Shown: positions 24,399 to 56,251 of the stretch, piece by piece | Position numbering within the stretch: position 1 is the first letter of the stretch | Layout: each line of letters opens with the position of its first letter | NCBI GenBank assembly: GCA_030651135.1 | Contig: JAUSCS010000006.1 | Span: 194,851 to 258,850 of the forward strand | Length of the DNA stretch: 64,000 bases | Direction: 5' to 3' | Origin: Candidatus Woesearchaeota archaeon | GTDB lineage: Archaea; Nanobdellota; Nanobdellia; Woesearchaeales; JACPBO01 | Translations under genes and position numbers: made by a program | The notes under the pieces: model-generated | What the model was told of the DNA's origin: nothing | What the model saw: only the letters and a program-made list of their open reading frames with translations | Databases searched by the model: none

Positions 24399-25352
24399 TT
24401 ACTCCACAACGTCCTTTAATCCGCCTTCTTCAACAAAGAAGTTGCATTCTGCTTCTGGCAGATTCGGGCTGTCAACAAGCTTTGCCACTCTGCTTCCCTT
24501 CTTGCCTTTTCTGAGGTATATTCTGAAAGTAGAGGCATGAGCAACAATATGCCCGCCAATTGCCTGCGTTGGATCGCCGAAGAACATATCCGGCTTTGCC
24601 ATAACCTGATTCGTTACATAGACGCAGAGATTGTTTGTATCTGCAATCCTCATCAGGGTGTGCATGTGCTTGTTCAGCTTTTGCTGCCTGTCAGCCAGTG
24701 TTCCCCTTCCTACAAATTCTGCCCTGAAATGGGCTGTAAGGGAATCAATAACAACAAGCTTCACTTTCAGGCCCTGCTTTTTTATCAGGTCTTCAGTTTT
24801 TTCAGCAAGAAGCATTTGGTGATCAGAGTTGTAAGCCCGCGCAACTTTTATGTTGTTAAGCACCTGCTCTGGCTCCAATCCCGCGCCTCTTGCAAGCTGA
24901 ATTATACGCTCAGGCCTGAAGGTATTTTCAGTGTCAATGTAGACAGCAACTGCGTCCGGATCATCCTTCTGGCACATTACAGACAGTATATGCCCAACCT
25001 GTGTTTTCCCAGATCCAAATTCACCGAAGCATTCTGTGATTGCAGCTGATTCAAAGCCTCCGCCAAGCAAAGCGTCAAATGCCTTGCTTCCTACTGAGAG
25101 TTTTTTTACACCCTGCCTTTTCTGCAGCAGTTCAGCTCCTGTCTCAAATCCCATATCCAAAGATGAGCGGGCTGCCTGTATCATCTTCCTTGCTGTTGCT
25201 TCTGTAACACCTGCAATTTCAACTAACTCTGCCGGCGATGCAACTGCTACTGACATTAAATCATTATAGCCGCAAGTTTGTAATTTTTCTGCTGTTGCTG
25301 CCCCGACTCCGGGCAGATCCATTAACGCAACTTCTTTTTTTTCTTTTTTCAT
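24399..25352 (-). CDS. radA: RadA, archaeal RecA/Rad51 recombinase
   Basis: 317 residues, normal length for RadA. The N-terminal helix-hairpin-helix domain is [13 protein letters not shown] to [10 protein letters not shown]. Walker A is GEFGSGKT at 110-117 and Walker B is KLVVIDS. The DNA-binding loop region has [25 protein letters not shown]. It forms filaments on single-stranded DNA for strand exchange. I chose the ATG at 25352, preceded by GGTGAT at ribosome-site distance; an in-frame GTG at 25361 overlaps that site. It is downstream of a small gene in the same transcript. Confidence 0.95.
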
Positions 25353-25363
25353 TATGATCACCT

Positions 25364-32066: not shown

Positions 32067-33101
32067 CTACCTATTGGAGATTGGCGGAATATCTCGTGCT
32101 TCTATCTCTTTCTTCAGTCTTTCGATCTCTTCAGAAGGATCAACATTCGGGAATACGAGCTGCGATATGAGCTCCAGTCTTCCAAACATCGCATTCTTGA
32201 CAACCCTGCCCACAACCTTGATCTGTTTTCCCTTCAGCTCGGTTTTCACTGCTTCAAACTCAGGAATATTTTCCCTGTATTTTGTGATCTCTTCCTCATT
32301 CTTGCTCAGCAGAGCGTTTGCCTGCTTTTTGAAAAACACAACCCTTATGTTGTCTGTTCCGTCATCCAAAAACGTATTCATAACATAAGAATAAGCTGGC
32401 TCAACTATGCCGTGCTCCTCGCACATAAAATTGTTTGACAGCATCCTTGCCCTTTTCTCGCATTTCGGGCAGACTTCAAAGAACTTGGGATCAGAAACAT
32501 CCACTATTGTGCCGAACAGCTCTACATTCGGCTCGCTTTCTTTCAGCTCATTTATCTTTTTTCTTTTCGCCTGTATCTTCATTTCTGTTTCTTTTATCTC
32601 ATCTATCGCTTCGCCAGGCGGGCTTATGATAAGCTTGCTCTTGTCATTGATATGCACTTCCAGCCTGCCAAAATTCTCCCTTACATAGCCGCCGACAATC
32701 TTGATTACATCACCCTGCTTCATCTTTTCAAGGTTATTCACCTGGTCATTCCAGAGCACAATCCTTACGCTGCCTGTTTCATCCCCCATCACAAGTGATG
32801 CAACCTTTCCGCTTCTTTCTCCAGATATGAACTCTCTCAATTCATATATCTCTGTAATTTTTCCTACAGTTTCAACATTCCTCATGCCGGCAAGAATATT
32901 TTTAATTTTTAATTTTCCAGAAACCTGCTCGAAGATCTTGACACCAAGGTCATTCGCCACAATATGGGCTGCCCCTTCCCTCGATATAAGGCCAGAAAGA
33001 TGCTTTAGTTTTTCCTTGATCTTATCTTCAATCTCGTTATCGCTTAAATTTGTCTTCTCCTTTATCTTCTCAATTATAGTCTCTACAGGTATTTTAATCA
33101 A
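32067..33101 (-). CDS. rpa: Replication protein A, archaeal ssDNA-binding protein
   Basis: 344 residues. Residues 5-60 are the helical N-terminal part seen in archaeal RPA (LSGLISREGAAHIVANDLGV). OB folds follow near 70-160 and 190-290. The second contains a zinc finger with C211, C214, C227 and H230. It coats single-stranded DNA in replication and repair. The start is TTG at 33101, supported by GGTGG at ribosome-site distance and by good agreement of the N-terminus with the family. It is oriented like the envelope genes upstream but 60 bp separate them. Confidence 0.88.
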   Translation of the reverse strand: MIKIPVETIIEKIKEKTNLSDNEIEDKIKEKLKHLSGLISREGAAHIVANDLGVKIFEQVSGKLKIKNILAGMRNVETVGKITEIYELREFISGERSGKVASLVMGDETGSVRIVLWNDQVNNLEKMKQGDVIKIVGGYVRENFGRLEVHINDKSKLIISPPGEAIDEIKETEMKIQAKRKKINELKESEPNVELFGTIVDVSDPKFFEVCPKCEKRARMLSNNFMCEEHGIVEPAYSYVMNTFLDDGTDNIRVVFFKKQANALLSKNEEEITKYRENIPEFEAVKTELKGKQIKVVGRVVKNAMFGRLELISQLVFPNVDPSEEIERLKKEIEARDIPPISNR

Positions 33102-33161: not shown

Positions 33162-35735
33162 CTATGAGATTGTTATTGTTTTTAAGTTTTTATCATTTAA
33201 ATCTGAAATTTTATTTGGTGTTTCATCTGTTGCTATAACCGCAAAATAATAAGTTCCGGCAGCCAGATTGTCAAGTGGATAGCTCAGATCAGACAATGCT
33301 GCAATCGGTAAATCAGCAGGCTCTATTGCGGTTTTAAGTGCTGTAAATTTATAAATTTCATATTTGTTGAAATCATTTATATTTGTTCCATCATAATTCT
33401 TATCAACAGCCAACCAGGATAAAGTTAGTTTTTTGGTTGCAGAATCGTATATTGGCGTATTCATCATTACTCTTCCGGGAGCCAGATCATCCGCCACATT
33501 TCCCTGCGCAGTTTCAAGCTCTTGCCCTGCTGAAACGCCATCGATCTCATTGTCGCTGAAATCAACTGCAGCAACTGCAAGATTATACTTTTCACCATCA
33601 TCAAGGCCGCTCAGAATATAAATAAACTCCTCTCCCCATAAGTGTAATTTTCCTTTTTCTAATGCTTTATTGTACTTATCATAAACGCAAGGTTCGCCTT
33701 CTTTTACATAATTGCAGTTTTCTAAATCAATATCGCTGATTTCCTCATATTCAGTTGCATCAATTTTTTCTTTTTTATCTACATTGTCGCCACGTTCATC
33801 TTTCAAATTATGATTTTCAATTTTAGTTTCTTTTATGTTATTTTTTGTATAATAAATATTAAAATATTTGATGTCATTCGCTTCTTTTTCATCAATCTTG
33901 TCCCACGTCAGGATCAAAGAATTCTGGGCTTTTGGCTGATCTATTGCTTCCAGATTCTTAATTGGCGGCGGCGGGGTTGTATCGCCAAAGTCAATGGCAA
34001 AGCTATAAACAATGTTCTTTTCTTCAACCTTATCAGCTATTTTGTCATAGACAAGAAATTTCTTCTCATTGTTTGTTACGCAGAAATTTGCCTGCCTTTC
34101 CGAAACAGAGCATGAACTACCAATCTTGTTTTCTGAAAAACTTACTAGTTCTGATCTTTTATACATTTTTAACATATCTAGATTAAAGTCATACCTTTTA
34201 TTTAAAAAAACAACCCCAAAAAATCCTAAATCCCCGCTATACGCTTCGCTCTTTAACCTTATTGCAGCTTTTCCATCGCCATCATATTTTATTATAAAAT
34301 CAATGTATTTTTGCAGATCAAAAACTAATTGTTTATTTGAATCTTCTATTGCTATTGTTGGTCCGATTGCATCTATAGTTTCGCTAAACTTGTTCAGGGT
34401 AGCTGTGATTTTATTGCCGTCATTTGCCATCCTTATCTTAAATTCCTTGTTCTTAGGCCCATCTTTCAGCTTGAATTCGCAGCTGCAATCTGTCATCTCT
34501 GATGCAAGGCATCTTTGGTAATAGCTCAAGAATTCAGAGAAAACCTTCTCTTCTTCTGTTCCGCAGTCTGCTGACCAGCTGAATGTTTTTGAATCAAATT
34601 TTTTAATTTCATTATTCGCGCAGGTGTTCAGATCTTCCTTTGAACATTTTGCAATCAAATCCTTTACATTTTCTTTTATTAAGGAATAATCATCCAGGCT
34701 GTAATCAATGGCAAGATCAAATGAAGGCTTTATAGCATAAGTTACCTTGTTTTCAATTGCCTTGCATGTTAGCGAATCTTTATTAAAAGTTACATCCCCA
34801 TATTTTCCATTCTTCAATAAAGGATGCGAGAAATAGTTCAGCGGATTTACATAATTGCCTATTTTCATGCTTGCTGTTGCATCTTCATCAATAACAGCCA
34901 ATGCCAATATATCTAATTTCAATATATCAGTGTTTGCTTTGCCTATAAGATCCTGCGTCTTTATCTCATTGCCTTCGTTCACATTTATTGTCTTAAGGTT
35001 CCTGTATTCAACTTTTATTTTGTTCCCTGCATTATCCACAAGAACACTGTCAGCTGTCACTTTCTCAACCTTTCCAGTTAAAACAGCAAAAACATCTGAA
35101 TCTTTTCTTAAAACTACCTCAATATGATCTATGTTTTCTTTCCTCGTTGAATCATACCCAAAGCATTCCTCGACATACGGCTTGTCATCACTTGTCGGCC
35201 ATGCAAAGCCCCGCGGCTTATTAGTCGATTCAGAATATGACCTCGACGTATAGATGTTCTGCAATGCAATGCCGATAATTTTTAATTTTTCATTAAACGC
35301 AAAAGCATAGTTGTTTTCTGGAATAAAAATATCCTTGTAATTTGACAAATAGGGATTTAAATTCTTATTCAAGAACGAAGAAAGATTCAATTTTATGGAT
35401 TCTTCATCCGGATAGCATGCTTTATCCTTGGTTGTCCATAATGCATAGATGCCGTATTCCCCGCAGTCAGGCTTGTTGTTATAGCCGCCATTGGCTGCAA
35501 GATCATAGATTGACTGGTATGCTGAAAATTTAGCGGCTGTATCAATATACATCATCGCCTTCTCGCCTTTTCGATATTCGTTAAGGAGATTGGCTTCTCT
35601 TTCACCAATTTCTTTTTCATCAAAATTTTTCACCTTTTCCAATATCGTAAGGAGTGCCAATACCAAAATTGCCACAGCTATAAAAACAAGAAACATATTG
35701 AAAAACATTATTGATTTTTTATTCAACTTTTTCAT
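33162..35735 (-). CDS. Membrane-anchored protein with degenerate LytM/M23 domain and fibronectin III domains
   Basis: 857 residues. A membrane segment at 9-31 follows KKLNKKS. Residues 178-302 match the LytM/M23 peptidase layout: WP start, FGYDS, HIEVV, DVFAVLTGKVEKV, YRNLKTINVNEGNEIKTQDLIGKA and YVNPLNYF. Catalysis is unlikely, because HxGxD is HIEVV (the Asp is lost) and the HxH motif is LDI. Near 600-715 and 760-857 are fibronectin III-like domains (ILTWDKIDEKEANDIKYFNIYYT). The bulk should be outside the cell. It is the last gene of a coupled set of four and overlaps its upstream neighbour by 4 nt. Confidence 0.72.
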   Translation of the reverse strand: MKKLNKKSIMFFNMFLVFIAVAILVLALLTILEKVKNFDEKEIGEREANLLNEYRKGEKAMMYIDTAAKFSAYQSIYDLAANGGYNNKPDCGEYGIYALWTTKDKACYPDEESIKLNLSSFLNKNLNPYLSNYKDIFIPENNYAFAFNEKLKIIGIALQNIYTSRSYSESTNKPRGFAWPTSDDKPYVEECFGYDSTRKENIDHIEVVLRKDSDVFAVLTGKVEKVTADSVLVDNAGNKIKVEYRNLKTINVNEGNEIKTQDLIGKANTDILKLDILALAVIDEDATASMKIGNYVNPLNYFSHPLLKNGKYGDVTFNKDSLTCKAIENKVTYAIKPSFDLAIDYSLDDYSLIKENVKDLIAKCSKEDLNTCANNEIKKFDSKTFSWSADCGTEEEKVFSEFLSYYQRCLASEMTDCSCEFKLKDGPKNKEFKIRMANDGNKITATLNKFSETIDAIGPTIAIEDSNKQLVFDLQKYIDFIIKYDGDGKAAIRLKSEAYSGDLGFFGVVFLNKRYDFNLDMLKMYKRSELVSFSENKIGSSCSVSERQANFCVTNNEKKFLVYDKIADKVEEKNIVYSFAIDFGDTTPPPPIKNLEAIDQPKAQNSLILTWDKIDEKEANDIKYFNIYYTKNNIKETKIENHNLKDERGDNVDKKEKIDATEYEEISDIDLENCNYVKEGEPCVYDKYNKALEKGKLHLWGEEFIYILSGLDDGEKYNLAVAAVDFSDNEIDGVSAGQELETAQGNVADDLAPGRVMMNTPIYDSATKKLTLSWLAVDKNYDGTNINDFNKYEIYKFTALKTAIEPADLPIAALSDLSYPLDNLAAGTYYFAVIATDETPNKISDLNDKNLKTITIS

Positions 35736-36304
35736 TTTTTATAAAGCGGATCATCCAATACGGCCCCCCTGCCTTTTTTCCAGAGTTCAATCTTAAGATA
35801 ATTATCATCTGACGGAATAGATAAATCTGCTGTAGATGACAATATGTAATTTAAACCGCCTAAGTTTGCGCCCATGCTTCCGTCTTCATCAAACAATAGT
35901 TTATCTTCAGGCTCTAAATAAATCTTAATCTTCCAACCTCTCCAGTCATTGCTTCCATCAATGAAAAATATGGGATCAAAAAAATCTTTGAATATTGGAC
36001 GTAGTTGTTTCAAGTTATCATCCAAGTAATATCTAATTATTAATTCTGACATTGTTGCTTCTGGTGCCATATTTGGAATTTTTTGCTTGCCGATAACAGA
36101 GCTAACTGGTGTTCTAAAATAAGAATAAAGTAATGAAGATTCGGAGATAACATTAATGCCTGTTAAGACCCTTTCTTTATCGACTTTTACAGCAAAATAA
36201 AAAAGAGCGACAAAAATCATAAGAATAATAAAATAAGCGATCCATGCAAAGAAATCAACTAATGCTCCTGCATAGCCTTTTTTGTTTAGTTTTTTAAATT
36301 TCAT
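35732..36304 (-). CDS. Pilin-like single-pass membrane protein
   Basis: 190 residues. The N-terminus KFKKLNKKGYAGALVDFFAW leads into a hydrophobic stretch (residues 14-41), the layout of archaeal class III (prepilin-like) signals. The remaining 150 residues are extracellular if anchored, acidic, with SNDWRGWKIKIYLEPEDKLLFD. No family recognised. Coupled to the LytM-like gene (4-nt overlap) and 1 nt after the stop of the gene upstream. Confidence 0.65.
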   Translation of the reverse strand: MKFKKLNKKGYAGALVDFFAWIAYFIILMIFVALFYFAVKVDKERVLTGINVISESSLLYSYFRTPVSSVIGKQKIPNMAPEATMSELIIRYYLDDNLKQLRPIFKDFFDPIFFIDGSNDWRGWKIKIYLEPEDKLLFDEDGSMGANLGGLNYILSSTADLSIPSDDNYLKIELWKKGRGAVLDDPLYKK

Positions 36305-36305
36305 C

Positions 36306-36815
36306 TTAACCTTTATGTGTTACAATATCCATTTCCAGTTTTGCCGGTGTAAATTTGCCATTATCATATATTAAAACATAAAATATCCTAAATTCGCGCC
36401 TGTAGCCGGATGCAAAAGAAATCGGCTGGATGTTATTGTAAGTTTTCTCGTTATATATCAGCGATTTTATTTCCTTGTCTTTCTCATCAAGCAATCTTAT
36501 TTTTGCCGCTATTATTGCATTGCCTTTTTCATCAGTATCCTCATCATCATAGTATATTGCTGTTTCGAGATGGGCTGAATCGAATTTTTGCAGATCTACA
36601 ATGCCAGGATATGCCCTGTCTGTTTCCGGGCTGTTATAAGTTATGCCGTCAGGCGAATAAAGGATCCTGTTTGCCAGTAAAGCAATCCTCAGGTCAGTTG
36701 TTTCATTCTTGAGATTGAAGAAAAATGTTATGAGGAAAAGGATTGAGAATACAATTGTCACTATAAAAAGCAGTCTTTGTATCCATATCACTGTGTTAAA
36801 GCTTATTTCAACCAT
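36306..36815 (-). CDS. Single-pass membrane protein of the LytM/amidase-like operon
   Basis: 169 residues with one membrane segment at about 10-33 and a 135-residue beta-rich outer part (LLANRILYSPDGITYNSPETDRAYPGIVDL, ETAIYYDDEDTDEKGNAIIAAKI). No known domain. Its start overlaps the amidase-like gene stop by 8 nt, so the four genes 33162-37764 are probably made together. Confidence 0.65.
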   Translation of the reverse strand: MVEISFNTVIWIQRLLFIVTIVFSILFLITFFFNLKNETTDLRIALLANRILYSPDGITYNSPETDRAYPGIVDLQKFDSAHLETAIYYDDEDTDEKGNAIIAAKIRLLDEKDKEIKSLIYNEKTYNNIQPISFASGYRREFRIFYVLIYDNGKFTPAKLEMDIVTHKG

Positions 36816-37764
36816 TTTCGTAGTACTTTGTTAATGCCGCCGATATTGCTTCGCCAATATAATCTGCATCGTCCAATAATTTTGTTTGTGTTTCCCGGTC
36901 ATTATCAAATTCTATTAAAACTGAAAGCTTGTTCTGGTTAAGTATTGCATTGCTTGATGTTGGAATTATTGACAAGCCGTTTGAAGCCGGAAGATCTTTG
37001 CTTCTTAAAAGGTAATTTAAAACATAGCATGCCAGTTTCCTTGTTGTTGCTTCGTTTTCATTCGGTATGAATGCCTTTATTGTGTTTTTTGAATCTGTTT
37101 TGGCTATTGAATTAAGAAGTATTACCGCTTCTGGCTTTGCAGCTGCTATCTGGGCTTCAACTGTATCGCTGTGAGCCGGATCATCTATCATCTCTTTTTT
37201 TCCAAATGGCCCTTTTATATTTATATGTTCTAATTTCTTTATAATATCCTGGCTTTGCCCTGCGCTATAACCCGGATCAATTACAATGATCTTGTCATTT
37301 ACAGTGCCCTTTATTTCAACAGTCGGGCATCTTAGAGCTTCAGGCAGCGCATCCTGCATATTTGATGCCTTGAATTCAATGCCTGTTTTCGAAAATAATG
37401 CTTCTTGTGACAGATCAATATCTGAAAGCGAAGGATCGATATACTTGTCAATGCCAAAGGGGAATTGCTTGTATTCCTGTTTGTCTTTTTTACTAGCTAC
37501 TCTTACAAATGGCCTGTCTGTTGTTATGAACGTCATCACAAAAGGCTCGGGTGTTTTAACTTTGTAAAGCATATAAGCAGTTCCAGGAGCAGATTGCATT
37601 GTATCCAGCAGTAATGCAGTATCTGTTGCTGTTGCTCTCTTTTCAAAAGACGTGTCTTTTGCCAGCACATTGACCTCCCACAGGAGGAAGAGAAGAACTG
37701 CAACAAGGATCACCAGCTCTATTATGACATAGAGCATCAGCTGAATGACCCCTTTTTTGTTCAT
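36808..37764 (-). CDS. Membrane-anchored degenerate amidase_3-like protein
   Basis: 318 residues. The N-terminus MNKKGVIQLML plus the membrane segment (10-32) is pilin-like. Residues 158-318 follow the N-acetylmuramoyl-L-alanine amidase (amidase_3) pattern: IIVIDPGYSAGQS for IVIDPGHGG, VILLNSIAKTDS for SIHANA, TTRKLACYVL, and SVLIEFDNDRE for VLVELGFISN. The zinc-binding His are replaced (DPGY166; LNSIA), so hydrolysis is unlikely. First gene of the four-gene set; a TTAATAAATAA-like box is about 24 bp upstream. Confidence 0.68.
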   Translation of the reverse strand: MNKKGVIQLMLYVIIELVILVAVLLFLLWEVNVLAKDTSFEKRATATDTALLLDTMQSAPGTAYMLYKVKTPEPFVMTFITTDRPFVRVASKKDKQEYKQFPFGIDKYIDPSLSDIDLSQEALFSKTGIEFKASNMQDALPEALRCPTVEIKGTVNDKIIVIDPGYSAGQSQDIIKKLEHINIKGPFGKKEMIDDPAHSDTVEAQIAAAKPEAVILLNSIAKTDSKNTIKAFIPNENEATTRKLACYVLNYLLRSKDLPASNGLSIIPTSSNAILNQNKLSVLIEFDNDRETQTKLLDDADYIGEAISAALTKYYENG

Positions 37765-38595: not shown

Positions 38596-39363
38596 TTATC
38601 CCTGCAATCTATCGCAGGACAGTCTTTCTATGTTTTCATAAGGTACAACATAAATGTCATAGAAACTTTTTGACGGTTCTGCTCCTGTGATTTTTTTTAT
38701 CATTTTTTCACTGATTTTGCTTGCCCAGCTATCTTCGATAGCATAAATAACAACGCCATACTCGCCTTTAGATTTCAAAGTCGTACTGCCTGCAATATTG
38801 CCCCAATGAACAATATCCAGCACTTTTCGAAGATCTATCGACTCTATAAAAAAATCATTCCTGCTCTTTTCTGGAAGCGATCCTTTTAGATAGTCATAAT
38901 AATAAGCGTCTTTTTCTTCAGAAATCTTTTTATTTTTTAAAAAATCTACAAATTCATCTTCTGAAATGCTTCCTTCTGTTTCAAAACTAAATTTAGAACA
39001 AACAAAACATACTGCTTTGAAGACAAACCCTGCTTTTGTAAAAGGATCCTTCTTCCCTTCTCCAAACTGGCGCCAGCATTTGCGCATCAATTCTGCAATC
39101 TGCTTCATTGCATCTTCTTTTTTCTTCTCGTCAGTTGCTCCCTGGGGCTTGATCTGCCCGGCATCGTACATCTCGCATTTTATTTCAAGGATAGTTGATG
39201 ACTTGTCAGCAGCAATGACTGATGTCAAACAGACATCCTCGCCGCCCTGGCGCATAGTTGCCTTTATGATCACGCCGAATATTGCAAGGAGTATGACGAA
39301 GATAATTAATGCAAGGATTATGGGATTTATTTCTTCCATTGCCTTTTTGTTAGATTTTTTCAT
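38596..39363 (-). CDS. Pilin-like protein with CxxC and VPY motif, paralogue 1
   Basis: 255 residues. KKSNKKAMEEINPII followed by a hydrophobic segment (14-35) is a class III-like signal. The outer part has AMKQIAELMRKCWRQFG, a CxxC in VCFVC, YYDYLKGSLP and a terminal VVPYENIERLSC. The same order of motifs occurs in the gene at 41929, so the two are paralogues. The paired cysteines suggest disulfides or a metal. It starts 1 nt after the gene upstream. Confidence 0.65.
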   Translation of the reverse strand: MKKSNKKAMEEINPIILALIIFVILLAIFGVIIKATMRQGGEDVCLTSVIAADKSSTILEIKCEMYDAGQIKPQGATDEKKKEDAMKQIAELMRKCWRQFGEGKKDPFTKAGFVFKAVCFVCSKFSFETEGSISEDEFVDFLKNKKISEEKDAYYYDYLKGSLPEKSRNDFFIESIDLRKVLDIVHWGNIAGSTTLKSKGEYGVVIYAIEDSWASKISEKMIKKITGAEPSKSFYDIYVVPYENIERLSCDRLQG

Positions 39364-39364
39364 T

Positions 39365-39841
39365 TTATGTGTCCTTTATATAGACTGTGTTGCCTACTCT
39401 CCACACGATTACGTTTTTTACATTACCTCCATATGGGCTTTTCCTGTTCCATCCCGAAATTATGCTGCTCTCTATTAAGTTATTATATTTGCCCTCTATT
39501 ACCACATTATATTTAAAATGCTTTTTTGCAGAGAACAGACCTGGCTTGTTCATTTTTCTAATACATAAGCATTTATCGCAGCATCCTGTATCAGCAACAC
39601 GCGAAACCAACTCGTATTCGGGCTGTATATAATAAGGCACAAGTTTTTCATCAGCTGTTGCCTTCTCAACTGCCGGAACAAGAATCTGGTAAAATGTATT
39701 TAATGTAGCTAAGTCTGGCTTTGGAATGGATGCTGAAAAAAGAAGCCACATAAGCCAGAACAGCAATATTAGAAATATGGCCGCTATCACTAGGCTGATT
39801 ATTGTTTTTAAGGGAAGATCAATAGTTGCTTTTTTGTTCAT
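39365..39841 (-). CDS. Pilin-like membrane protein
   Basis: 158 residues. MNKKATIDLPLKTIISLVIAAIFLILLFWLMWLLF is a pilin-like N-terminus and membrane helix in three parts (charged, short linker, hydrophobic). The outer part has a Cys cluster TGCCDKCLC near 92-100, then a beta-rich end (YNVVIEGKYNNLIESSI). No family recognised. It abuts both neighbours (1-nt gaps). Confidence 0.62.
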   Translation of the reverse strand: MNKKATIDLPLKTIISLVIAAIFLILLFWLMWLLFSASIPKPDLATLNTFYQILVPAVEKATADEKLVPYYIQPEYELVSRVADTGCCDKCLCIRKMNKPGLFSAKKHFKYNVVIEGKYNNLIESSIISGWNRKSPYGGNVKNVIVWRVGNTVYIKDT

Positions 39842-39842
39842 T

Positions 39843-40232
39843 TTATGAGCTGCAGCAGCAAAGCTCTACTTTTTCAGGATTGAGTGTAGCCGCTGCTCTT
39901 ACTGTTTTTTCTGACGGGCAGCTGTATTTGCCTTTTTCAGCACTTTGTGCAGGACCACAACCCTCATGCCCATCCTTTCTATTTACATCGCTGCAGCCGC
40001 TTACTTTGTCATAGTTGCACGGCTTCCCCTGGGTTATTGCGCCTAAGCACCATGATGCTGCATTCGCCTGTCCGCCTGCTGTGTCTGTCTGCCCCCTGAA
40101 TATTGCTGCTATTCTTCCAGTTCCACCCATGAAGATGAAGATCAGAACAGCAAGAACAACTAATGCAAGAACAGCCCATATAATGGGCCCAAACATGAAC
40201 TCCGCAGCTTTTTTGTTTTTTATGATTGTCAT
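39843..40232 (-). CDS. Small pilin-like Cys-rich protein
   Basis: 129 residues from the ATG at 40232, chosen because GAGGTGC lies 3-9 nt upstream; an ATG at 40253 is less likely. MTIIKNKKAAEFMFGPIIW begins a class III-like signal and membrane helix. The outer part has eight or more Cys (WCLGAITQGKPCNYDKVSGCSD; GCGPAQ; ending ELCCCSS). It has its own AT-rich promoter near 40275-40283. Confidence 0.65.
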   Translation of the reverse strand: MTIIKNKKAAEFMFGPIIWAVLALVVLAVLIFIFMGGTGRIAAIFRGQTDTAGGQANAASWCLGAITQGKPCNYDKVSGCSDVNRKDGHEGCGPAQSAEKGKYSCPSEKTVRAAATLNPEKVELCCCSS

Positions 40233-40319
40233 TTTGCACCTCTTTTGAATCATAAGGGATTTAGAAAAGCCTGTATTTAAAGTTTTGTAAAAAAAACAAA
40301 AAATAAATGAGAAAAATTA

Positions 40320-40625
40320 TTATTTAGTTATAGGTATGCAGCAAAAATTGTCTGATTTTTTATCCTTATTATCGTCTTTTTCACAATCTGTGCCTCTCAG
40401 TATTGTCCAATCTGCACTTTTTTCAGCGGCACAATCTGCAGATGTTCCGGCAGCATTTGGTTTTACACATTCTCCACCCTTATCTACGCAGCTCTGCACA
40501 GCCAGGCTGAATCCACCCAATCTTCCTGTAAATATGGCAAACAGAACAACTAAAACAATCAATGCCAATGCAGCTATAATTATGACATTAACAGACATAT
40601 CCATTCCTTTTTTGTTGCTTTTCAT
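40320..40625 (-). CDS. Small pilin-like Cys-rich protein
   Basis: 101 residues. KSNKKGMDMSVNVII plus a hydrophobic segment (12-35) is pilin-like. The outer part has Cys in SCVDKGGEC, ADCAAE, DCEKD and FCCIP, similar in size and Cys pattern to the gene downstream. GAGGTG lies a few bases before the ATG, and a TTTAAATAT box lies near 40669-40677, so it may be separately expressed at high level. Confidence 0.65.
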   Translation of the reverse strand: MKSNKKGMDMSVNVIIIAALALIVLVVLFAIFTGRLGGFSLAVQSCVDKGGECVKPNAAGTSADCAAEKSADWTILRGTDCEKDDNKDKKSDNFCCIPITK

Positions 40626-40690
40626 CTTAACACCTCTTATTTATGATACTCTGATATTTGTAGCAGTAATATTTAAAGGTTTCTATGAGT

Positions 40691-41749
40691 TTAAGGGTTT
40701 TGGAGCTGCATTATTACGCAAGGGCTTCCTGCTACCGAATTATCTTTTGCCAGCGCATAGTTGCCATTTGGCAGATCTTTGTCAGTTGGGCATAATGAAG
40801 TTGCTGATTTTTGGATTTCTTTTTTTGGATAATATGCGTAATTCAATAGAAGTTCTGAGCCTTCCTGTTTGAGTGTATAGTCTGCTGGAAGCTCTAATTT
40901 TACAGTTTTCGTAGATCCTGTTCCGCTGTTGACATCATTGATCTCTTTAACAAAAGATTCAAATTTCTCATTTGCTTCAACTACATTCTTGGGAGCGGTG
41001 CATTCTTCTATATCATCCCATTTTGCTCCGCCGCGCTCTATTTGTTTTTTCGCAAGAAACCCTGTTTTTTCTAAACTGTATTTATAGATATAGTTGGTAA
41101 ACTCATCTAGCCAGATGGTGCTATATTCATCGTCTTTTGTAGAAGTTCCCAGATATGTGCCTGCGCTTAACTGAATACCGCCTATTCCTTGGTCTTTTCT
41201 TACTTCTTGCGTTGCAAATATGGATATTTTTATTTTTTCAGTAAAATCATCAAACTTAGGATATTTTACTCCGTTTCTAGTCTCCCAATTAACGGAATAT
41301 TCTTGTTTTGCAAGTAATTTGTCATTGTTAATGATAAGTAACTTAGCTGCCGTGTCTTTTTCCATATTCTCAAACTGGAATGTTTCAGAATTTGTTGTTT
41401 TATATATTCCAGTAAACTTTACAAGATTAATTTCCACATTCCCGCCGCTTTCAGTCAGCTCTATTGCATACCCTGCAGGCAGCCTGCTCTCCAATGAAGT
41501 TATCTCGCATCTGCATTCTGTGAAAGGGCTGAGTTTGCATGCCTGATATTGATTTACGAAAATATTGTAAAAATCGTAATTCGTCAATGGCTCTATATTC
41601 TGGTTTTGGCCGGGAACATCAAATCCAAGAATGGCTCTTATGCCGGCGAATGCCGTGCTGTTCCAGAAGAAAATGATAACAACCACGACTAATAAAACAA
41701 TAATTGCTTTTATAATCGGGCTTAATTGAAAATCCCCTTTTTTTTTCAT
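40691..41749 (-). CDS. Pilin-like membrane protein, large outer domain
   Basis: 352 residues from the ATG at 41749, which overlaps the stop of the 49-residue gene as ATGA. MKKKGDFQLSPIIKAIIVLLVVVVIIFFW is the pilin-like start. The outer domain is beta-rich with several Cys (CKLSPFTECRCEI; IEECTAP; SLCPTDKD; SPCVIMQL). An upstream in-frame extension to 41872 would run through the small gene and is rejected. No known family. Confidence 0.65.
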   Translation of the reverse strand: MKKKGDFQLSPIIKAIIVLLVVVVIIFFWNSTAFAGIRAILGFDVPGQNQNIEPLTNYDFYNIFVNQYQACKLSPFTECRCEITSLESRLPAGYAIELTESGGNVEINLVKFTGIYKTTNSETFQFENMEKDTAAKLLIINNDKLLAKQEYSVNWETRNGVKYPKFDDFTEKIKISIFATQEVRKDQGIGGIQLSAGTYLGTSTKDDEYSTIWLDEFTNYIYKYSLEKTGFLAKKQIERGGAKWDDIEECTAPKNVVEANEKFESFVKEINDVNSGTGSTKTVKLELPADYTLKQEGSELLLNYAYYPKKEIQKSATSLCPTDKDLPNGNYALAKDNSVAGSPCVIMQLQNP

Positions 41750-41895
41750 CCGCCAAATATCTTTTTTATTCCTTCCCATAATTCCCATCCTTTTCCTGAA
41801 AGCATACCGACTATTATCAGCAATGCAAGAAGAATTGCCAGCATAATCAGCAAGCCGCCTAAAACATTCCATTCAAGCGCTTTCTTGTTTGCCAT
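41746..41895 (-). CDS. 49-residue single-pass membrane protein
   Basis: It starts MANKKALEWNVLGGLL, has one membrane helix (about 12-32) and ends WELWEGIKKIFGG. The NKKA start matches the pilin-like family of this region. Its TGA overlaps the ATG of the next gene as ATGA, which is strong support for a real, coupled gene. It could be a minor pilin-like subunit or an assembly factor. Confidence 0.65.
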   Translation of the reverse strand: MANKKALEWNVLGGLLIMLAILLALLIIVGMLSGKGWELWEGIKKIFGG

Positions 41896-41928
41896 TTTAA
41901 ATTAAAGTCTTGTTTTCATTATATAAAC

Positions 41929-42807
41929 TTAACTGAAATAGCCTTCGAACGGCTCAACTCCCAGATCGATGCATTTTACCGATAAGCGCGAATAATCATA
42001 AGGTACAAGCAAAACCATTGGCGCATAGCCGCCTAACTGACCTGCCGCCATTATGCCGCCAGTTCCTGCCCCGATGGCAGCAGCGCCGCCAACAACAATA
42101 AGCGTAGTCCATGTTATTACGTTTATTCCAGGCACTAATGAAAGGACTGCAATTACGCCTGTAGTCGCTACACCCGCACCTATGCCGCCTCCAATTCCGA
42201 GGCCTTTCAAAATTCCCTCCCAGTTAGTTTCTTTAGTGGCATACAGCACTGTAGCATACCTGACTTTTGTCGAAATCTTTGTTTTGTCTTCTCTGTAATA
42301 TTTAATAATGTCATCTGTTGCCGGAGCTCCATTAAAATACTCATAATATGTCCTGTCATCTCCTGAAGGGTTGTGCTCTGCAAGGTAAAGCGCAAATCCG
42401 TCAATGTCTTCAGAAAACCCTTCAAATGTATTTATTGAGCAGACAGCGCAGAATTCATATTTATTTACAAAGGGATCCAATGGCGGCTGTTTATTTGCTC
42501 CGAACTTGTCCCAGCACCTTTTCATTGTCTGAGCAAGCTGCTCCCTTGCAGCATCTTTGTTCTTGGAATCTTTTATTGTGATTGGAATTGCTTTGCATTC
42601 TTTCAGGTCTTTCCCCATACCTGTTCTCGCAGCAATATCGACTGCCTTCGAGCATTTCTCATCTTCACCAACTCCGCGAGCTGCATCTGCCCACCCTTTC
42701 ATATATAGAAGACCAAAGACAGCAAGAAAAACAACGCCAAGTATTAGGCTTATAAGCGCAGCATTCCATATGTCTTTGGTTGTTCCCATTCCTTTCTTAT
42801 TTCGCAT
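41929..42807 (-). CDS. Pilin-like protein with CxxC and VPY motif, paralogue 2
   Basis: 292 residues. MRNKKGMGTTKDIWNAALISLILGVVFLAVFGLLY is the pilin-like start. The outer part matches the gene at 38596: QLAQTMKRCWDKFG, FCAVC, TYYEYFNGAP and a final LLVPYDYSRLSVKC. Unlike it, this one has an inserted Gly/Ala-rich hydrophobic segment (about residues 203-262), possibly a membrane hairpin. Its ATG lies inside the end of a 39-residue gene. Confidence 0.66.
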   Translation of the reverse strand: MRNKKGMGTTKDIWNAALISLILGVVFLAVFGLLYMKGWADAARGVGEDEKCSKAVDIAARTGMGKDLKECKAIPITIKDSKNKDAAREQLAQTMKRCWDKFGANKQPPLDPFVNKYEFCAVCSINTFEGFSEDIDGFALYLAEHNPSGDDRTYYEYFNGAPATDDIIKYYREDKTKISTKVRYATVLYATKETNWEGILKGLGIGGGIGAGVATTGVIAVLSLVPGINVITWTTLIVVGGAAAIGAGTGGIMAAGQLGGYAPMVLLVPYDYSRLSVKCIDLGVEPFEGYFS

Positions 42808-44919: not shown

Positions 44920-45456
44920 TCATCCCCCGCAAATATCCAGCCTGAAATAAAGCAATCCAGATGCTGACTGCAGAGGCTGGTTTGCGCTGTACCATGTTGT
45001 GCAGTTGCCCTCAGTTATATTTAACATTATGTTCTCAGTGCATTTTATTTCATCAGCCACTCTGTTTGCTTTGCATGCTGTAAATTTGAATGCATCGCGG
45101 TCAAATCTGTCTTTTAAAGTAGGATAAAGTATTTGTGTTCTAACAATAGAATTAACATGCTGGCATGAATACTGCCCTGTTGTAGCACAAAGTACATCTC
45201 CCCTGCCATTGCCTGATTTTGCGCAGTCTGCATAAAGCTCCCAGATCTCGTAATCATTGCAGTCTGTTGTTGTTCCGAGCAATGTCGACAGAGTATTTGA
45301 AGCAAGCTCTGACTTAATGTATCTTTCCCTTATTGTTGAACCCTGCTTTGAAAAAATGTAAATCACTGCAAAAAGCAAGGCAAATGTTATAAGTACAACT
45401 ACGATAACCAATCCAAGAACTTCTGTCTGTGATTTTTTGTTTAATTTGGCTGCCAT
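44920..45456 (-). CDS. Pilin-like Cys-containing membrane protein
   Basis: 178 residues. KLNKKSQTEVLGLVIVVVLITFALLFAVIYIF is a classic class III-like signal, with Q and E after the cut region. The outer part has eight Cys (DCNDYEIWELYADCAKSG; VLCATTGQYSCQHV; ACKANRVADEIKC) and ends LDICGG. It is the last gene of the 45-63 kb run and overlaps its upstream gene by 16 nt. Confidence 0.68.
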   Translation of the reverse strand: MAAKLNKKSQTEVLGLVIVVVLITFALLFAVIYIFSKQGSTIRERYIKSELASNTLSTLLGTTTDCNDYEIWELYADCAKSGNGRGDVLCATTGQYSCQHVNSIVRTQILYPTLKDRFDRDAFKFTACKANRVADEIKCTENIMLNITEGNCTTWYSANQPLQSASGLLYFRLDICGG

Positions 45457-45944
45457 GATTGTATTGTCAATACTCCGAAGTTTTTTTTGTCTTCTACGGC
45501 ATTATAAATACTGATCGGAATATAAGTTAGGTAATATGTTGAATAGTTGGCGGTTTTATTGTAAAGAACCCATTCACCATCTGGTAGAGTAAGTTGTGGG
45601 TAAATCTGATTGATTTTTATAACGCTAAACCCGAAAAGGTCAAAGTAGTAATTGTCCTGCAGCGTGGAATCTGCCGCAATCAGCTCGTTGAATGCCATGA
45701 TTTTATACAAATCAAAACTTATGTAAGTTATATTCTTGTAAGTCTGCTGAAGCTCTGGCAGGAATTGTATTAAATTGGCTATTTCAATTGACTGCTGCCT
45801 GAACTGCTCTTTTGTGCTTTCTTGTACTTCGCCTGTCTGGAATTTTGCATAGAAGATCATTCCAATAAAGACCAGTACTATGAATATAAAGATCACCATT
45901 ATCGTTTCTCCCATTTTCATCAGTTGGGCTTTTGTTTTTTTCAT
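45441..45944 (-). CDS. Pilin-like membrane protein
   Basis: 167 residues. KKTKAQLMKMGETIMVIFIFIVLVFIGMIFY gives a membrane helix at about 14-33; ETIM after KMG resembles other members here. The outer part is helical then beta-rich and has no Cys (STKEQFRQQSIEIANLIQFLPELQQ). It follows its upstream gene after 1 nt. Confidence 0.63.
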   Translation of the reverse strand: MKKTKAQLMKMGETIMVIFIFIVLVFIGMIFYAKFQTGEVQESTKEQFRQQSIEIANLIQFLPELQQTYKNITYISFDLYKIMAFNELIAADSTLQDNYYFDLFGFSVIKINQIYPQLTLPDGEWVLYNKTANYSTYYLTYIPISIYNAVEDKKNFGVLTIQSWQPN

Positions 45945-45945
45945 T

Positions 45946-47019
45946 TCAGTAGATTAAAGGGCAGGAATCTGATTCTGCATCTGAGTTTTTTTGGACCAAA
46001 TCATTTGCATTTGTTTTTATTGTTTCTATGTTTGCCACTCCAAAACCAGTGTTTAACTGCAAGATTATACTATCAAGTGCAGTCGTGGTATAATAAGAGC
46101 AAGATGTTATCAAAGTTGGTTCTGTGCTAAGAATGTCATTTCTGTTTTTATACAATTCCGCCATTATTTTATATTTTTTGAACGCCTTTTCCATATTGCA
46201 CTTGTAGTTTTCAGCATCTTCTGCGAATGCTGCTCCGATTAAAGAAGGTGTTTCGATAAAAGGAAGAGGATCATCACCTTGTTCTTGAAAGTATCTTGAA
46301 ATATCTGTGTTATACTTATAAAATTTAATCCCGTCGTCGTTTATGTTAATTGCGGTAATCTGGTTTTTTATTTTATCAAAAAAGTCTGGAAAACTGGGCG
46401 CAATATTGCCCGAATGTGTTTGATAAAAAAAGATAAATTTTATTTTATAATTATTTGTATTTTGAATAGTTCCTATTTCGCTATAGTCTGTTATTTCTTT
46501 CAATATTTTTTCAGGCAATAAAGTATAAAATTCATTTGCTTTGGCTTCTGTTTCTGGCTGCGCAGCATCTTTAACCAATATATACCTCACTTCAGGGCTC
46601 GTTATATACAGAAAATTCATAATGAAAAAAGGAGATTTCCATTTCATTGTGTAAGTCACCATCTCTCTTCCTTTTATGAAATCCGGGGAAAACAAGACTG
46701 TTGTTGCCAATGACTCTGAAACCCCTGTTTTTTCTATGTTAAAGGATGATGTCGCATCTTCGCAGACAAAATTAATCTTTTTATTAGGCGTTCTTATCAG
46801 ATTTTCCCTGCTTTCTTCTGTTCCGAGCTTTGAGTGCGTTATTATCGTCCTCAAATTGTTCCTGACATCCTTTGCGAGATTAGTTTCAGCAAGACCTCTC
46901 TGCCAGTTGACAATCGCTATAAAAAACAAAAGAATAAGCGAGCCTGCAATCATTACAAAGATCCAGTTGAACTGAACCTCAATCATCGCTTTTCTTTTAA
47001 GATTCCGAGATTTCAACAT
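45946..47019 (-). CDS. Pilin-like membrane protein, large outer domain
   Basis: 357 residues. LKRKAMIEVQFNWIFVMIAGSLILLFFIAIVNW is the pilin-like start with Glu after RKAMI, the best match here to the class III pattern. The outer domain includes NINDDGIKFYKYN, a NYKCNMEKAFKKYKIMAELYK helix and a late SCSYY. No family recognised. It overlaps the gene upstream by 23 nt. Confidence 0.63.
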   Translation of the reverse strand: MLKSRNLKRKAMIEVQFNWIFVMIAGSLILLFFIAIVNWQRGLAETNLAKDVRNNLRTIITHSKLGTEESRENLIRTPNKKINFVCEDATSSFNIEKTGVSESLATTVLFSPDFIKGREMVTYTMKWKSPFFIMNFLYITSPEVRYILVKDAAQPETEAKANEFYTLLPEKILKEITDYSEIGTIQNTNNYKIKFIFFYQTHSGNIAPSFPDFFDKIKNQITAININDDGIKFYKYNTDISRYFQEQGDDPLPFIETPSLIGAAFAEDAENYKCNMEKAFKKYKIMAELYKNRNDILSTEPTLITSCSYYTTTALDSIILQLNTGFGVANIETIKTNANDLVQKNSDAESDSCPLIY

Positions 47020-47506
47020 AGTTGCCCCTGCCTGTTATTCTGAATGCTACTCTGCCAGAAGAGGTATCTGTGCATAAAAACAAAGGGTTTGCAGAATCTG
47101 TAGGATCTGGGTCCGGAATATTGATTTTTCCTACATAAAATGATTCGGCTGATGCCCTACTTTTAATCAAGAAGATATTTTTTTGAATACCCGAACTGAT
47201 GCTATTTTTTATTATGGGGTTTAAGTTAGCAGGAGGTGATGGGCTGCCTATTAAGTCATCATCAACAAAGCACATCTGATTATATCCTACAGGGAGCTTT
47301 AAGTCCAACAGCTCAGAGCTGCCTGCTTCTGTCGATATTGCGCCTATATCGCGCTCCAAGGCTGTCTTAAACCGGATAAAATCCGCCTCTGTTGATTTCA
47401 CCATCAAATCGCTGATTGCCTTGAAGCCGAAAATCATGACCAATCCTATTACGAGCAATGCAAGCATGAAAACAAACACAAGATTTTGAACTTCTGCTTT
47501 TGCCAT
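46997..47506 (-). CDS. Pilin-like membrane protein
   Basis: 169 residues from the ATG at 47506, four bases after the stop of the giant gene; earlier starts (47521, 47524) overlap it. MAKAEVQNLVFVFMLALLVIGLVMIFGF is the pilin-like start. The outer part is of mixed alpha/beta character (RFKTALERDIGAISTEAGSSELLDLKLPVGYNQMCFVDDD). Confidence 0.62.
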   Translation of the reverse strand: MAKAEVQNLVFVFMLALLVIGLVMIFGFKAISDLMVKSTEADFIRFKTALERDIGAISTEAGSSELLDLKLPVGYNQMCFVDDDLIGSPSPPANLNPIIKNSISSGIQKNIFLIKSRASAESFYVGKINIPDPDPTDSANPLFLCTDTSSGRVAFRITGRGNYVEISES

Positions 47507-47510
47507 GTTC

Positions 47511-50500
47511 TTATTCCGCATCAAGATTGGACAAAATTTTCTTTGCCTGCTCCTCAGATATCAATTTTTGTCCAGCAAGGTCTGACAACAGGAACTTTGC
47601 ATCTGATTTTGTTATTTTATCCAGCTTCATCAGCTGCAATAATATCTCTTCTGCAAGATTTTTTGTGATTTTCTTGGTTTTAAAAAGATTAGAAAATGTT
47701 TTGCTGAGATCTTGCTTGGCCATTCCTTTTGATTCTGTAAGTGCAAGCAGCTTCTTTGCATAGTCGCCTTTCAAGTTTTTAGCTGCTATTTCTTTCAGCC
47801 TTCTGAATGCATCATCTTTTTTTGAAGGCTTGGCTGCTTTTTTGGATTTGACAGGTTTTTTAATTTCTTTTTCTAAAGTGCCTTTTGGCTTTTCAGCTAA
47901 TTTCCTTAATCTGGCAAATATGTCGCTTGGCTTTGCTGCTTCAGGCGCTGTTTTTGCTTCTTCTTTCATTTCTGTTATTTCAGGTTTTATTTCTTTCTTT
48001 ATCTCGCTTTTTTCTTTTATCTCTTCTTTCATTTTTTCTGCTGGCTTTTCAACTATTTTTTCCAGTGGTTTTTCTTCATCAAATGACTTAAATATTTTCT
48101 CTCTTTCTTTTGCTTCTGCCGCCCGTTTTATTTCCCTGGATCGTTGTACAGGCTGTGCAGGCCTTTGAATGAATCCTGGTTTTGCCTCAGGTCTTGAAAG
48201 TGATATTGGCTGCTGCATCCTTGGCGCATAATATGGTTTTTTCTTCTGCAAGTAGGGCGCATAATAATATGCATAGAATGCATAGCCTCCTCCACTGAGT
48301 GCTGCAAGTATAATGAGTGTTAATAATATCGGGAACCAATTAAAGCCTCCGCCTTCGGCTTCAAGCCTGCATGACGCGCTGCATCCGTCTCCGCTTGCTG
48401 TATTGCCATCATCACATTCCTCGCCTGCATCTTTAAAGCCGTTGCCGCATACTGCTGTTACATTAACTCTTTCATTGCAATAACCATTCAGGCAGTAATT
48501 TGTTGTGCAGTCTCTTGAAATTAAGCATACTTTTCCAACTTGGCATTTCGAACATGCTGCGCCGCCGCAGTCTTTGTCTGTTTCATCACTATTTTTTATA
48601 TTGTCGCTGCATGTCTGAGTTATGCATTTTTTACTCGGGCTGCAATAATTCGTTATGCAATCGCTGTTGTCCAGGCAATTTTTCCCAGAATCGCATGAAT
48701 CGCAGCCTCCGCCGCAGTCAATGTCTGTTTCATCTCCGCTTAATTTGGCATCTTTGCAGTTATCAAGGTCTTTTTTGCATATGCCGGATTTGCATTTTAA
48801 ACTGGTTGCGCAGTCGCTGGTTTGGATGCATTTCTTGCCTTCTGTGCAGTCTGGGCAGCTTCCGCCGCAGTCTTTGTCAGTTTCATCGCCATTTTGAACA
48901 TTATCGCTGCATGAAGGAGTTGTGCACTTCTTAGTTGAATTCGGGCAATAGCCGCTCAGGCAGTCTGAATTTATCAGGCAGTTTTTGCTGTTTGTGCAGC
49001 CTATGCATTGTTTGCCGCAGTCCACATCTGTTTCTGTGTCGCTTTCAAATAAGAGATCCACGCAATGGCTAGGTAGCTTTAATATATCGACTGTTACGCC
49101 ATCGCTTGCCTTGATGTCGCTTGTCCAGTTTGCATAGTCCACTGCCTTTACTTTAAACTTATAGCTCCTTAGATTTGTCAAATTGAGCTTTGTGCCGTTA
49201 GTTTGCGCCCAGTTTGGCTCGTTATCTTTAGTTAACCAATACCATTGATCATCTATTGAGCTTGCTGTCCAATTCACAACCACATTCAAATAGCTGTCTT
49301 CCAGCAAATACATATAATACCATATCCCTGATCCTACATCTGTGCCGTGCCATTTTGCCTGCAGCCTGTCTGTGAAATATGAAAATTGCGTATTGTTGGC
49401 CAGGTTGCTGGAATCATCAACGTAGCTCATATTCGGCTTATTCGTGTCAACTACGAAAGTGATTGTTACTGGATCAGACCATACGCCGGCAGCGATGCAC
49501 TTCGCATAATATGTGTTTGAGCCTTCCTGCTGGTTAGGCGTATGCTTGTGGCGGTAGCCTGTTGTTTCCGAGAATGAATATATTATTGAAGAGCTGCTCA
49601 TACCCCAATAGCATTCTGAATTTTTGTTTGTTCCGATATCTATCTTTGTCTGGTTTGTATTGCTGTAAGTTGGAGAATAAATCGTTATTGCAGTTGGAGC
49701 GCTCAGGTTTACAACAAAGCTTATAGTTGATGTTGCAGATGTCCAGCCGGCGAGATTCTCGCATGCAGCATAATAAGTGTAGCTTCTTTCTTCTGTTGGA
49801 AGGTATAATATTTTGTTATGTATTGTATCAAATTGCTTCTGGGTGTAGCTTGAAAAGTTTCCTTCCATCTGGGAATAATTCTGCGTTGCATTGCTGTATT
49901 TGCATATTGCTGCCTCGTTTGTCTGAACTTTCAATGTTGCATTAGGCGGAGCTTCTACTATGAGTGAGGGATTTGCATATGCTGTTATTATCTGCGGCAG
50001 TGATGAATCAACCCTGATTACAAATGTTTGGCTCATTATGCCGCGCTGCGTATCATTGCATTTTACATAAAAGTTATGTGTATTTTCATCTGTAATGTAA
50101 AGGTTGTATAATTCGTGCAGTGTTGAGTTTGAAATATCAAAGCCCGCCATGTTATTGAAGGACTGAACTGATATGTCAAGAGACTGCCTGCATTGCACAG
50201 CCTTGTCTGTCCCAATTGTTATATTGAACCGCGGAGTTGGTGAAACGTTGTATGGTGGATAAAGCATCGTTATTGTTAATGGAACTGCATCGACTTCAAA
50301 TGTGCTGATTGACTGAACAACGCTTCCTGCATAATCATGCGCAGTTATTATCAATGTTTTGCTGCCGTCTGAGAAGTTCTGTGATTTTGTGAATAGTTTG
50401 TTATCTGAAGTTGTGAATGTTGCCGGGATTAATGAAACTGCATCGACTAAAACATCATCCAATATTACTGCTTCGCTAAAATTAAATCTCATTGAAAGAT

Positions 50501-55007: not shown

Positions 55008-56251
55008 GATATTGTGAGCGCTATTAACTGGTAATCTGACAGCTCCCCGTCAGTTGCATTGACTAATATGCTCAGGCCATTGTTTTTATCTGTATCTGTT
55101 ATTGTATAAGTGGGCTGAAGAGGATATGCGATGTTATTTTTATAATAAACAAAACTAATTGCATCTTCATCAGGGTCATCTGCAATTATAGTTTCACTTT
55201 CCCATGTTGTGCTTCCGCTTATTTTGGTTATGTTATTCAGCATATCTGTGGTTATTAGGTCATCTGCCACAAATGTCATCCCTGTTGGCGGCCCTGAAAT
55301 CAGTTGCAATGCTGGCATTCTGTTTTTCCTTGCAAACCTCATAATATAAGGCTCGTTCCATATCTTTGACTGCGTATCCATTATTGATATTAAGTCATCT
55401 TTATTATAATAGTCCCTTGTGACCACAACCTGCATTTCGCTGCTGCTTAGCGTGCTTGGATTGAAGTCAATGTCTGTTATGTCTTTGTTTATGAGGACTT
55501 TAACAAATTCTCCATATATCTTTTTCAGCCTTACTTTCTGGTTTGAGTTGAATTTGCTGATCTTCACTTTTTGGCCTGTTGCTGTTTTTGTTATTTCCAG
55601 AGGAAATCTGAGATTCACTGAAACATCTTTTTTTCCGATAATTGTTGATGTATTTGGCGCTTCTGCAATGACACTGAATCCCTGCGGCTGGAAAACGCTG
55701 AAATCTGTGCAGTTTCGGATGTGTGTGTTAACGTACTCCTCCAATTGCCTTTGCAATGAATGGGATCCCTGGTTTTTATATAATGGCGGGAATTTGTCTT
55801 CACCGTAAATTTTGAATGATGGCGGGTTGTTTGGGTAATCCGGCCATGGGTATGTTGGCGGCTCAATGGATAATGGAGGTACTGAAACTCCTAAAGGCAT
55901 TATTGCATAAGGTATTATGTAACTGCCATCCTTCACATAAAATTTGCCTACCTCATCTGCACGGTAATCTTTTTCTGTTCCGCCCTGCGAACTGAATATC
56001 CTTCCTCCCTGCTTTCCCAATAACTGCAAAGCATCTGCTGAGACCTTGTCAAGGCAGAATGTTACATAATTTTGTATCGGGTTTATCTCTTTAATCTGTT
56101 CTTCTGTCAGCTGGGCTTCTCCACCGGCTTCTTCTCTTGCTGCATAATTTATGATATAAAACACCAGCCCGAAGATGATTAAGATGACTATTCCGATTAT
56201 CATGAAGACGGTTATCTGCGATTTCTTGTTAAAATTATTTTTCGGGTTCAT
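55004..56251 (-). CDS. Pilin-like protein with large outer domain
   Basis: 415 residues. NNFNKKSQITVFMIIGIVILIIFGLVFYII is the pilin-like start. The outer domain has YVTFCLDKVSADALQLLGKQGG, the Pro-rich PPLSIEPPTYPWPDYPNNPPS, a long basic beta domain and an Ig/cadherin-like end (DPDEDAISFVYYKN, TDGELSDYQLIALTIS). Similar proteins occur, to my knowledge, in other DPANN archaea without a known role. It overlaps the gene upstream by 17 nt. Confidence 0.66.
   Translation of the reverse strand: MNPKNNFNKKSQITVFMIIGIVILIIFGLVFYIINYAAREEAGGEAQLTEEQIKEINPIQNYVTFCLDKVSADALQLLGKQGGRIFSSQGGTEKDYRADEVGKFYVKDGSYIIPYAIMPLGVSVPPLSIEPPTYPWPDYPNNPPSFKIYGEDKFPPLYKNQGSHSLQRQLEEYVNTHIRNCTDFSVFQPQGFSVIAEAPNTSTIIGKKDVSVNLRFPLEITKTATGQKVKISKFNSNQKVRLKKIYGEFVKVLINKDITDIDFNPSTLSSSEMQVVVTRDYYNKDDLISIMDTQSKIWNEPYIMRFARKNRMPALQLISGPPTGMTFVADDLITTDMLNNITKISGSTTWESETIIADDPDEDAISFVYYKNNIAYPLQPTYTITDTDKNNGLSILVNATDGELSDYQLIALTIS

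Follow-up and report, generated by a model that had tools for sequence, protein, structure and literature searches.

A conserved four-gene operon of Woesearchaeota and relatives with an exchangeable enzyme slot, probably encoding a surface complex directed at the walls of other cells

Introduction

In bacteria, degenerate LytM factors such as EnvC and NlpD activate amidases at division. A LytM-type zinc site can also be present in one species and absent from another, as in SpoIIQ, where it is lost in Bacillus subtilis and intact in Clostridium difficile (PMC4982068). In archaea, peptidoglycan hydrolases that kill bacteria have been surveyed under the requirement that a catalytic and a wall-binding domain be present together (PMC12352652), large SLT proteins (fam00969) have been described in Woesearchaeota and Pacearchaeota (PMC8204110), and GH23 enzymes of Woesearchaeota accompany the proposal of a “vampiristic” life (PMC9723730). 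Here we analyse a 64,000-nucleotide stretch of a Candidatus Woesearchaeota genome (contig JAUSCS010000006.1, positions 194,851 to 258,850; hereafter the window, numbered from its first letter) and an operon of four genes in it, A, B, C and D, in which A carries an amidase_3-like domain and D an M23/LytM-like domain, both with degenerate active sites. The original prediction, made from the letters of the window, saw in these two domains a structural or regulatory pair comparable to EnvC/NlpD and their amidases, perhaps acting in division or host attachment.

The operon shares with the fam00969/GH23 proteins, a family to which some D proteins plausibly belong, its lineages, its SLT surface proteins and a proposed action on bacterial walls; the accessible parts of the two papers (PMC8204110, PMC9723730) cover single SLT proteins and do not mention the four-gene arrangement, the slot that takes alternative folds, the amidase_3 subunit or the dead versions. 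The likeness to the surveyed hydrolases (PMC12352652) lies in archaea that lack murein but encode a variety of bacterial-type wall hydrolases, Nanoarchaeota prominently among them, and in domain shuffling; unlike those enzymes, the modules here are anchored in the membrane, lack a known binding domain and appear embedded in a conserved multi-protein complex. The M23-like domain of the window resembles SpoIIQ in its membrane anchor and in a zinc site kept by some relatives and lost by others, the relationship being a distant one with a different architecture, different partners and a different organism. With EnvC/NlpD and AmiA/B/C the window shares the two fold families and a degenerate LytM domain, but it has no active amidase and no recognised FtsEX context, and its domains are individually replaceable. 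Among open-licence papers, in their accessible parts, we found no description of the operon, the exchange slot or the dead versions; single lytic transglycosylases of DPANN archaea are already known, and the four-gene operon with its slot appears undescribed, which does not prove novelty.

Results

The four genes lie on the minus strand at 33162-37764, with ends that abut or overlap, in the 5′ to 3′ order A, B, C, D (Table 1). The open reading frames (ORFs) agree with the original prediction, in its coordinates and in its one operon of membrane-anchored A and D with two small membrane proteins; the latter, B and C, are single-pass and lie between A and D. All four proteins have one transmembrane (TM) helix at the N-terminus, with a basic stretch before it in A, C and D, and from this topology the rest of each protein should be extracellular. 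With regard to a class III signal as in type IV pilins or pseudopilins, the residues preceding the helix are KKG in A and C and KKS in D, a motif that is missing in B, and the genome encodes a prepilin peptidase.

The distribution of these genes was studied in 279 genomes of the phylum, mostly metagenome-assembled genomes (MAGs), using single-sequence and profile searches. Single sequences recovered A in 70 and D in 128 of the 279 genomes, and a profile of the conserved N-terminal domain of D (D_N), a domain for which sequence search gave no solved structural relative, was found in 207. We compared 40 loci of up to 20 kb together with 19 named loci and found that the A-B-C-D order is conserved in about 55 of them, many with the archaeal RPA or RadA on the same contig; usually RPA and RadA lie downstream, and another group of small membrane proteins, also conserved, lies upstream. 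In the window, the N-terminal domain of A (A_N), B, C and D_N are adjacent and in order, as in the definition of the quartet. A pattern scan of all genomes, built on a seven-row D_N alignment as the full alignment is too divergent, gave matches only in Woesearchaeota, Nanoarchaeota, Pacearchaeota and one uncultured archaeon. The hidden Markov model of the C family drifted towards TM proteins in general, and its matches were accepted only at E < 1e-8. Collectively, these results show A-B-C-D to be a quartet with conserved synteny in Woesearchaeota and relatives.

The comparison of D proteins shows that the region between D_N and D_mid, a Cys-rich domain starting with YxxKPSF, is a slot that takes enzyme modules and exchanges them often. 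By Pfam, the slot contains M23 (8), SLT (5, and one more behind an M23), M15/VanY (4), M74 (3), NlpC/P60 (2), Amidase_2 (2) or Metallophos (1), and is empty in 15; assignment by eye adds two SLT, two M15/VanY and three NlpC/P60. Catalytic motifs were recovered in 28 of the 31 inserts by a pattern test in which the SLT pattern is weak and permissive, and one slot M23 (locus L087) is without its first His. In one genome (G078) an Amidase_3 match comes straight after D_N in a single 702-aa frame, and where a locus is split, the next gene encodes the Cys-rich and fn3 parts. Downstream genes bring GH25, GDSL, M15_4 and 3D domains.

On a tree of A_N, B and D_N, which is a quick tree with poorly supported deep branches, 28 changes of slot type are counted over the 49 rows, compared with 30.9 +/- 1.7 for shuffled labels. 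Changes are thus near random, and the content of the slot is nearly independent of the scaffold. Given the quality of the tree, firmer evidence comes from well-supported sister scaffolds that carry different enzymes, namely M23 and Amidase_2 (L098/L099), Amidase_2 and M15 (L104/L114), and M23 and an NlpC-like module (L101/L094). Furthermore, chance would place about 0.55 M23 and 0.17 Amidase_3 matches at a distance of up to 4 kb from a D_N, but 21 of the 83 M23 and 16 of the 25 Amidase_3 matches are found there. The idea that these hydrolase families are confined to the operon was rejected, M23 and SLT being scattered across the genomes of the phylum.

The amidase_3-like domain of A had been read from the motifs IDPGY, LLNSIAK and VLIEFDNDRE, all of which lie within A. 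A Pfam search of A gave no match to PF01520, yet hhalign paired residues 153-318 with seven intact amidase_3 domains of relatives (97.3%, E 1.9e-11), and the top PDB matches found by Foldseek for the AlphaFold2 (AF2) model of A are N-acetylmuramoyl-L-alanine amidases (5emi, E 5.6e-4; 7rag; 8c0j; 4rn7). Of the catalytic H-E-H-E residues, the first His is Tyr and the second Asn in the window, and the last Glu alone is clearly retained. The same four residues are intact in seven of the 26 loci with an amidase domain (L065, L067, L075, L080, L084, L085 and L095) and degenerate to a varying extent in the others, and in further loci A is reduced to its N-terminal domain. A can also gain modules, as in a 1479-aa A-type protein that is extended far at its C-terminus by a sequence reading as Amidase_2-like (L070:5408-9844). 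Where the amidase is intact, the slot of D is empty (four loci) or holds an intact M23 (three loci); a degenerate M23 together with an intact amidase was seen in none of the loci examined.

In the D protein of the window, the slot contains the M23-like domain, with the motifs FGYDS, HIEVV, DVFAVLTGKV and YVNPLNYF all within D. The PF01551 score is 21.5 bits with the protein and 25.1 bits in the genome search, below the cut-off of 28.7, but hhalign against eight M23 domains from the slot of relatives gave 97% (E 1.1e-10), so that the originally noted family resemblance is real for both domains despite a sub-threshold or missing Pfam match. SpoIIQ is both the NCBIfam match (E 6.9e-6, far under the model's own cut-off) and the top PDB match (E 0.004) of the slot. 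The AF2 model has a predicted local distance difference test (pLDDT) below 50 in this region, which had no usable alignment row, and the M23-like fold is thus drawn from profiles; modelling bears out the predicted fold for A and is uninformative for this part of D. As predicted, the zinc site is lost: the Asp, the His of YxHL and the HxH are gone, the latter by deletion, and one His (in HIEVV) is still found near the first ligand position. The ligand losses in both domains are common to the sister species (G024). Among relatives both domains occur with complete zinc sites, an outcome that, as far as the sites go, counts against the original interpretation.

We found both inactive domains to be under purifying selection in the genus of the window. 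In a two-species estimate against G024, the ratio of non-synonymous to synonymous substitution rates (dN/dS) is 0.17 for the M23-like domain (95% bootstrap 0.09-0.29) and 0.22 for the amidase-like domain (0.13-0.36); D_N and the fn3 part have values of 0.07 and 0.27, respectively. This constraint favours a retained, non-catalytic function.

Discussion

Based on sequence comparison, we propose that the quartet probably encodes a surface complex directed at the walls of other cells, with a slot that takes interchangeable murein hydrolases, and that the window has it in a binding or structural form. In Woesearchaeota and relatives, the four proteins would together form an extracellular complex anchored in the membrane, in which A and D present murein-hydrolase modules to foreign walls. 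In D, D_N would be the conserved base and D_mid the conserved top, with the enzyme module inserted between them; A would present its amidase_3 module, which most lineages have in a degenerate form and some still have intact. The most likely substrate is bacterial peptidoglycan, from cells that are contacted, attacked or scavenged from, since the archaeon shows no murein pathway and the SEDS/Mur-type genes of the assembly lie on contaminant contigs. In the genus of the window, the loss of catalytic residues under purifying selection makes wall-binding or structural pseudoenzymes the most likely state of both modules, and SpoIIQ of B. subtilis offers a precedent for a LytM domain turned structural.

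Several observations weigh against this proposal. The degeneration of most amidase domains of A points to a generally non-catalytic role of this protein, and the many quartets with an empty slot and a short A imply that B, C and the N-terminal domains must have a core function other than hydrolysis. No wall-binding domain was recognised by Pfam in A-D, and the combination of catalytic and wall-binding domains on which the survey of archaeal hydrolases was based (PMC12352652) is accordingly absent from them. The genomes are mostly MAGs, and the exchange count depends on the quick tree.

The conserved neighbours of the quartet raise the question of whether the wall is opened for transport. VirB1/PrgK-type hydrolases open the wall locally in type IV secretion, and the complex might likewise clear the way for a transfer machine (DNA uptake, conjugation-like transfer or protein secretion) to a neighbouring cell, with RPA and RadA handling the incoming single-stranded DNA. 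The conservation of these two genes, the many small single-TM proteins of the conserved block, a T2SSE-type ATPase encoded in the genome beside the prepilin peptidase and a very weak PrgK match (E 0.52) are in line with this. However, the block in the window has no recognisable transport ATPase, channel or relaxase, and RPA and RadA are housekeeping proteins whose adjacency may be accidental. We consider a transfer machine unlikely.

A second possibility concerns the substrate, as the enzymes could cut a polymer that is not bacterial, either the pseudomurein of methanogen hosts or the surface glycoproteins of the archaeon itself. The hosts of DPANN archaea known so far are archaea (PMC8204110), and D has a very weak match to the pseudomurein endo-isopeptidase Pei (PF12386, E 0.067). 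That match is within chance and was discarded, SLT, M15, M74, NlpC/P60, M23 and amidases together are the standard set of bacterial murein hydrolases, and pseudomurein differs from murein in its chemistry (PMC12352652). A non-bacterial substrate is, in our judgement, quite unlikely.

The two domains of the window may also be dying relics without function, as several ligands are lost, including by the deletion around HxH, and empty slots are common enough to show that the domains are dispensable in many lineages. The dN/dS of about 0.2, with upper bounds of 0.29 and 0.36, and the intact frames in two species make decay improbable. Finally, an inherited EnvC/NlpD-like module kept for archaeal cell division is highly improbable: the fold identities are correct and an EnvC-bound AmiB is among the structural matches of A, but both partners are dead in the window, an intact amidase never accompanies a degenerate M23 in the loci examined, a pairing that the EnvC model requires, the slot is swapped for six other, unrelated Pfam fold families or for nothing, and the neighbourhood contains surface proteins, RPA and RadA with no division gene recognised, although no explicit search for division families was made per locus. 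Of the two roles originally suggested, host attachment possibly stands and the inherited division pair is not supported.

Returning to a complex aimed at bacterial walls, it is conceivable, though on balance doubtful, that most of this archaeal class engages bacterial walls by means of a dedicated surface machine, whose enzyme tip is hot-swappable and evolves in the manner of an arms race. If so, many DPANN archaea would use bacteria as hosts or prey, and in the lineage of the window the tip would have gone from cutting to gripping. As a recognisable conserved operon, the quartet gives a molecular handle on possible parasitism or predation of bacteria by DPANN archaea; it tells which domains to express and sorts genomes into cutting, non-cutting and empty forms. 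The domains that are retained with their catalytic residues lost are a natural series for the study of pseudoenzymes.

Genomic context

Table 1. Coordinates of the quartet, its domains and conserved neighbouring genes in the window
Feature	Coordinates	Strand	Description	Evidence
Gene A	36808..37764	-	318 aa; TM helix, conserved N-terminal domain (residues 1-135), degenerate amidase_3-like domain (residues 153-318)	ORF, family and synteny, AF2, Foldseek, hhalign
Amidase_3-like pseudo-domain of A	36811..37308	-		Alignment, hhalign, dN/dS
Gene B	36306..36815	-	169 aa, conserved single-TM quartet protein	Found in 50 other loci
Gene C	35732..36304	-	190 aa, conserved single-TM quartet protein	ORF, family search
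Gene D	33162..35735	-	857 aa; TM, D_N, M23-like slot, Cys-rich D_mid, two fn3 domains
D_N	35241..35735	-	Conserved N-terminal domain of D, residues 1-165	Alignment, phylum-wide profile search
Slot of D	34800..35240	-	Residues 166-312, degenerate M23/LytM-like, SpoIIQ-like	Pfam, NCBIfam, hhalign, PDB, dN/dS
D_mid	33996..34799	-	Conserved Cys-containing domain, residues 313-580, start YxxKPSF	Family comparison
fn3 domains of D	33165..33995	-	Two fibronectin type III domains	Pfam, Foldseek
RPA	32067..33101	-	Single-stranded DNA-binding OB-fold protein, conserved downstream neighbour	Pfam; homologues in 46 other loci; gene order
RadA	24399..25361	-	Recombinase, conserved downstream neighbour	Pfam Rad51; homologues in 31 other loci
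Conserved proteins upstream of A	38596..42807	-	Single-TM proteins of 255, 158, 136, 101, 393 and 292 aa	Homologues in 31-49 other loci
Second conserved set	44920..56251	-	Single-TM proteins of 178, 167, 357, 175 and 415 aa around a 2498-aa Ig-like surface protein

A domain related to D_mid is also present in the neighbouring 393-aa protein. In the second set, the 178-aa protein is C-like, and the 415-aa protein (55004-56251) has a D_N-like N-terminus (E 1e-11) and is a paralogue of D, which suggests that one block encodes two related membrane complexes. The 2498-aa protein inside this set (47511-55007) is Cys-rich, with bacterial immunoglobulin (Ig)-like domains, and giant proteins of differing sequence are found at similar positions in other loci.

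Plus-strand genes at 29351-31955 and 37911-38555 break up the minus-strand operons as if inserted as cassettes, and have no homologues in the other loci compared. They are bordered by repeats of 51 nt at 30122 and 31905 (88%) and by inverted repeats of 39 nt at 31956 and 37911 (82%). In the window, a pair of genes resembling type I restriction-modification (25908-28676) is inserted between RPA and RadA; in most relatives these two genes lie near each other.

Three contigs of the assembly (G000), C1 of 10.7 kb, C4 of 38 kb and C7 of 5.1 kb (loci L127-L129), contain FtsW/RodA and an intact M23 among bacterial-like frames. The intact M23 (C7) and the two SEDS genes (C1, C4) were rejected as archaeal wall genes and attributed to bacterial contamination because the contigs are short and have frames like MurG, MraY, bacterial RpoC and PNPase; the contaminant is probably patescibacterial, which fits the stated 3% contamination.

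Two further genes or clusters were read by eye. On the plus strand at 43021-44805, a 594-aa protein, also present in G024, joins a lipase/esterase to a formylglycine-enzyme-like domain. At 4605-10248, near the surface-protein block, NeuC, NeuB, NeuA and N-acetyl sugar amidotransferase-like genes form a putative nonulosonic (sialic-like) acid cluster.

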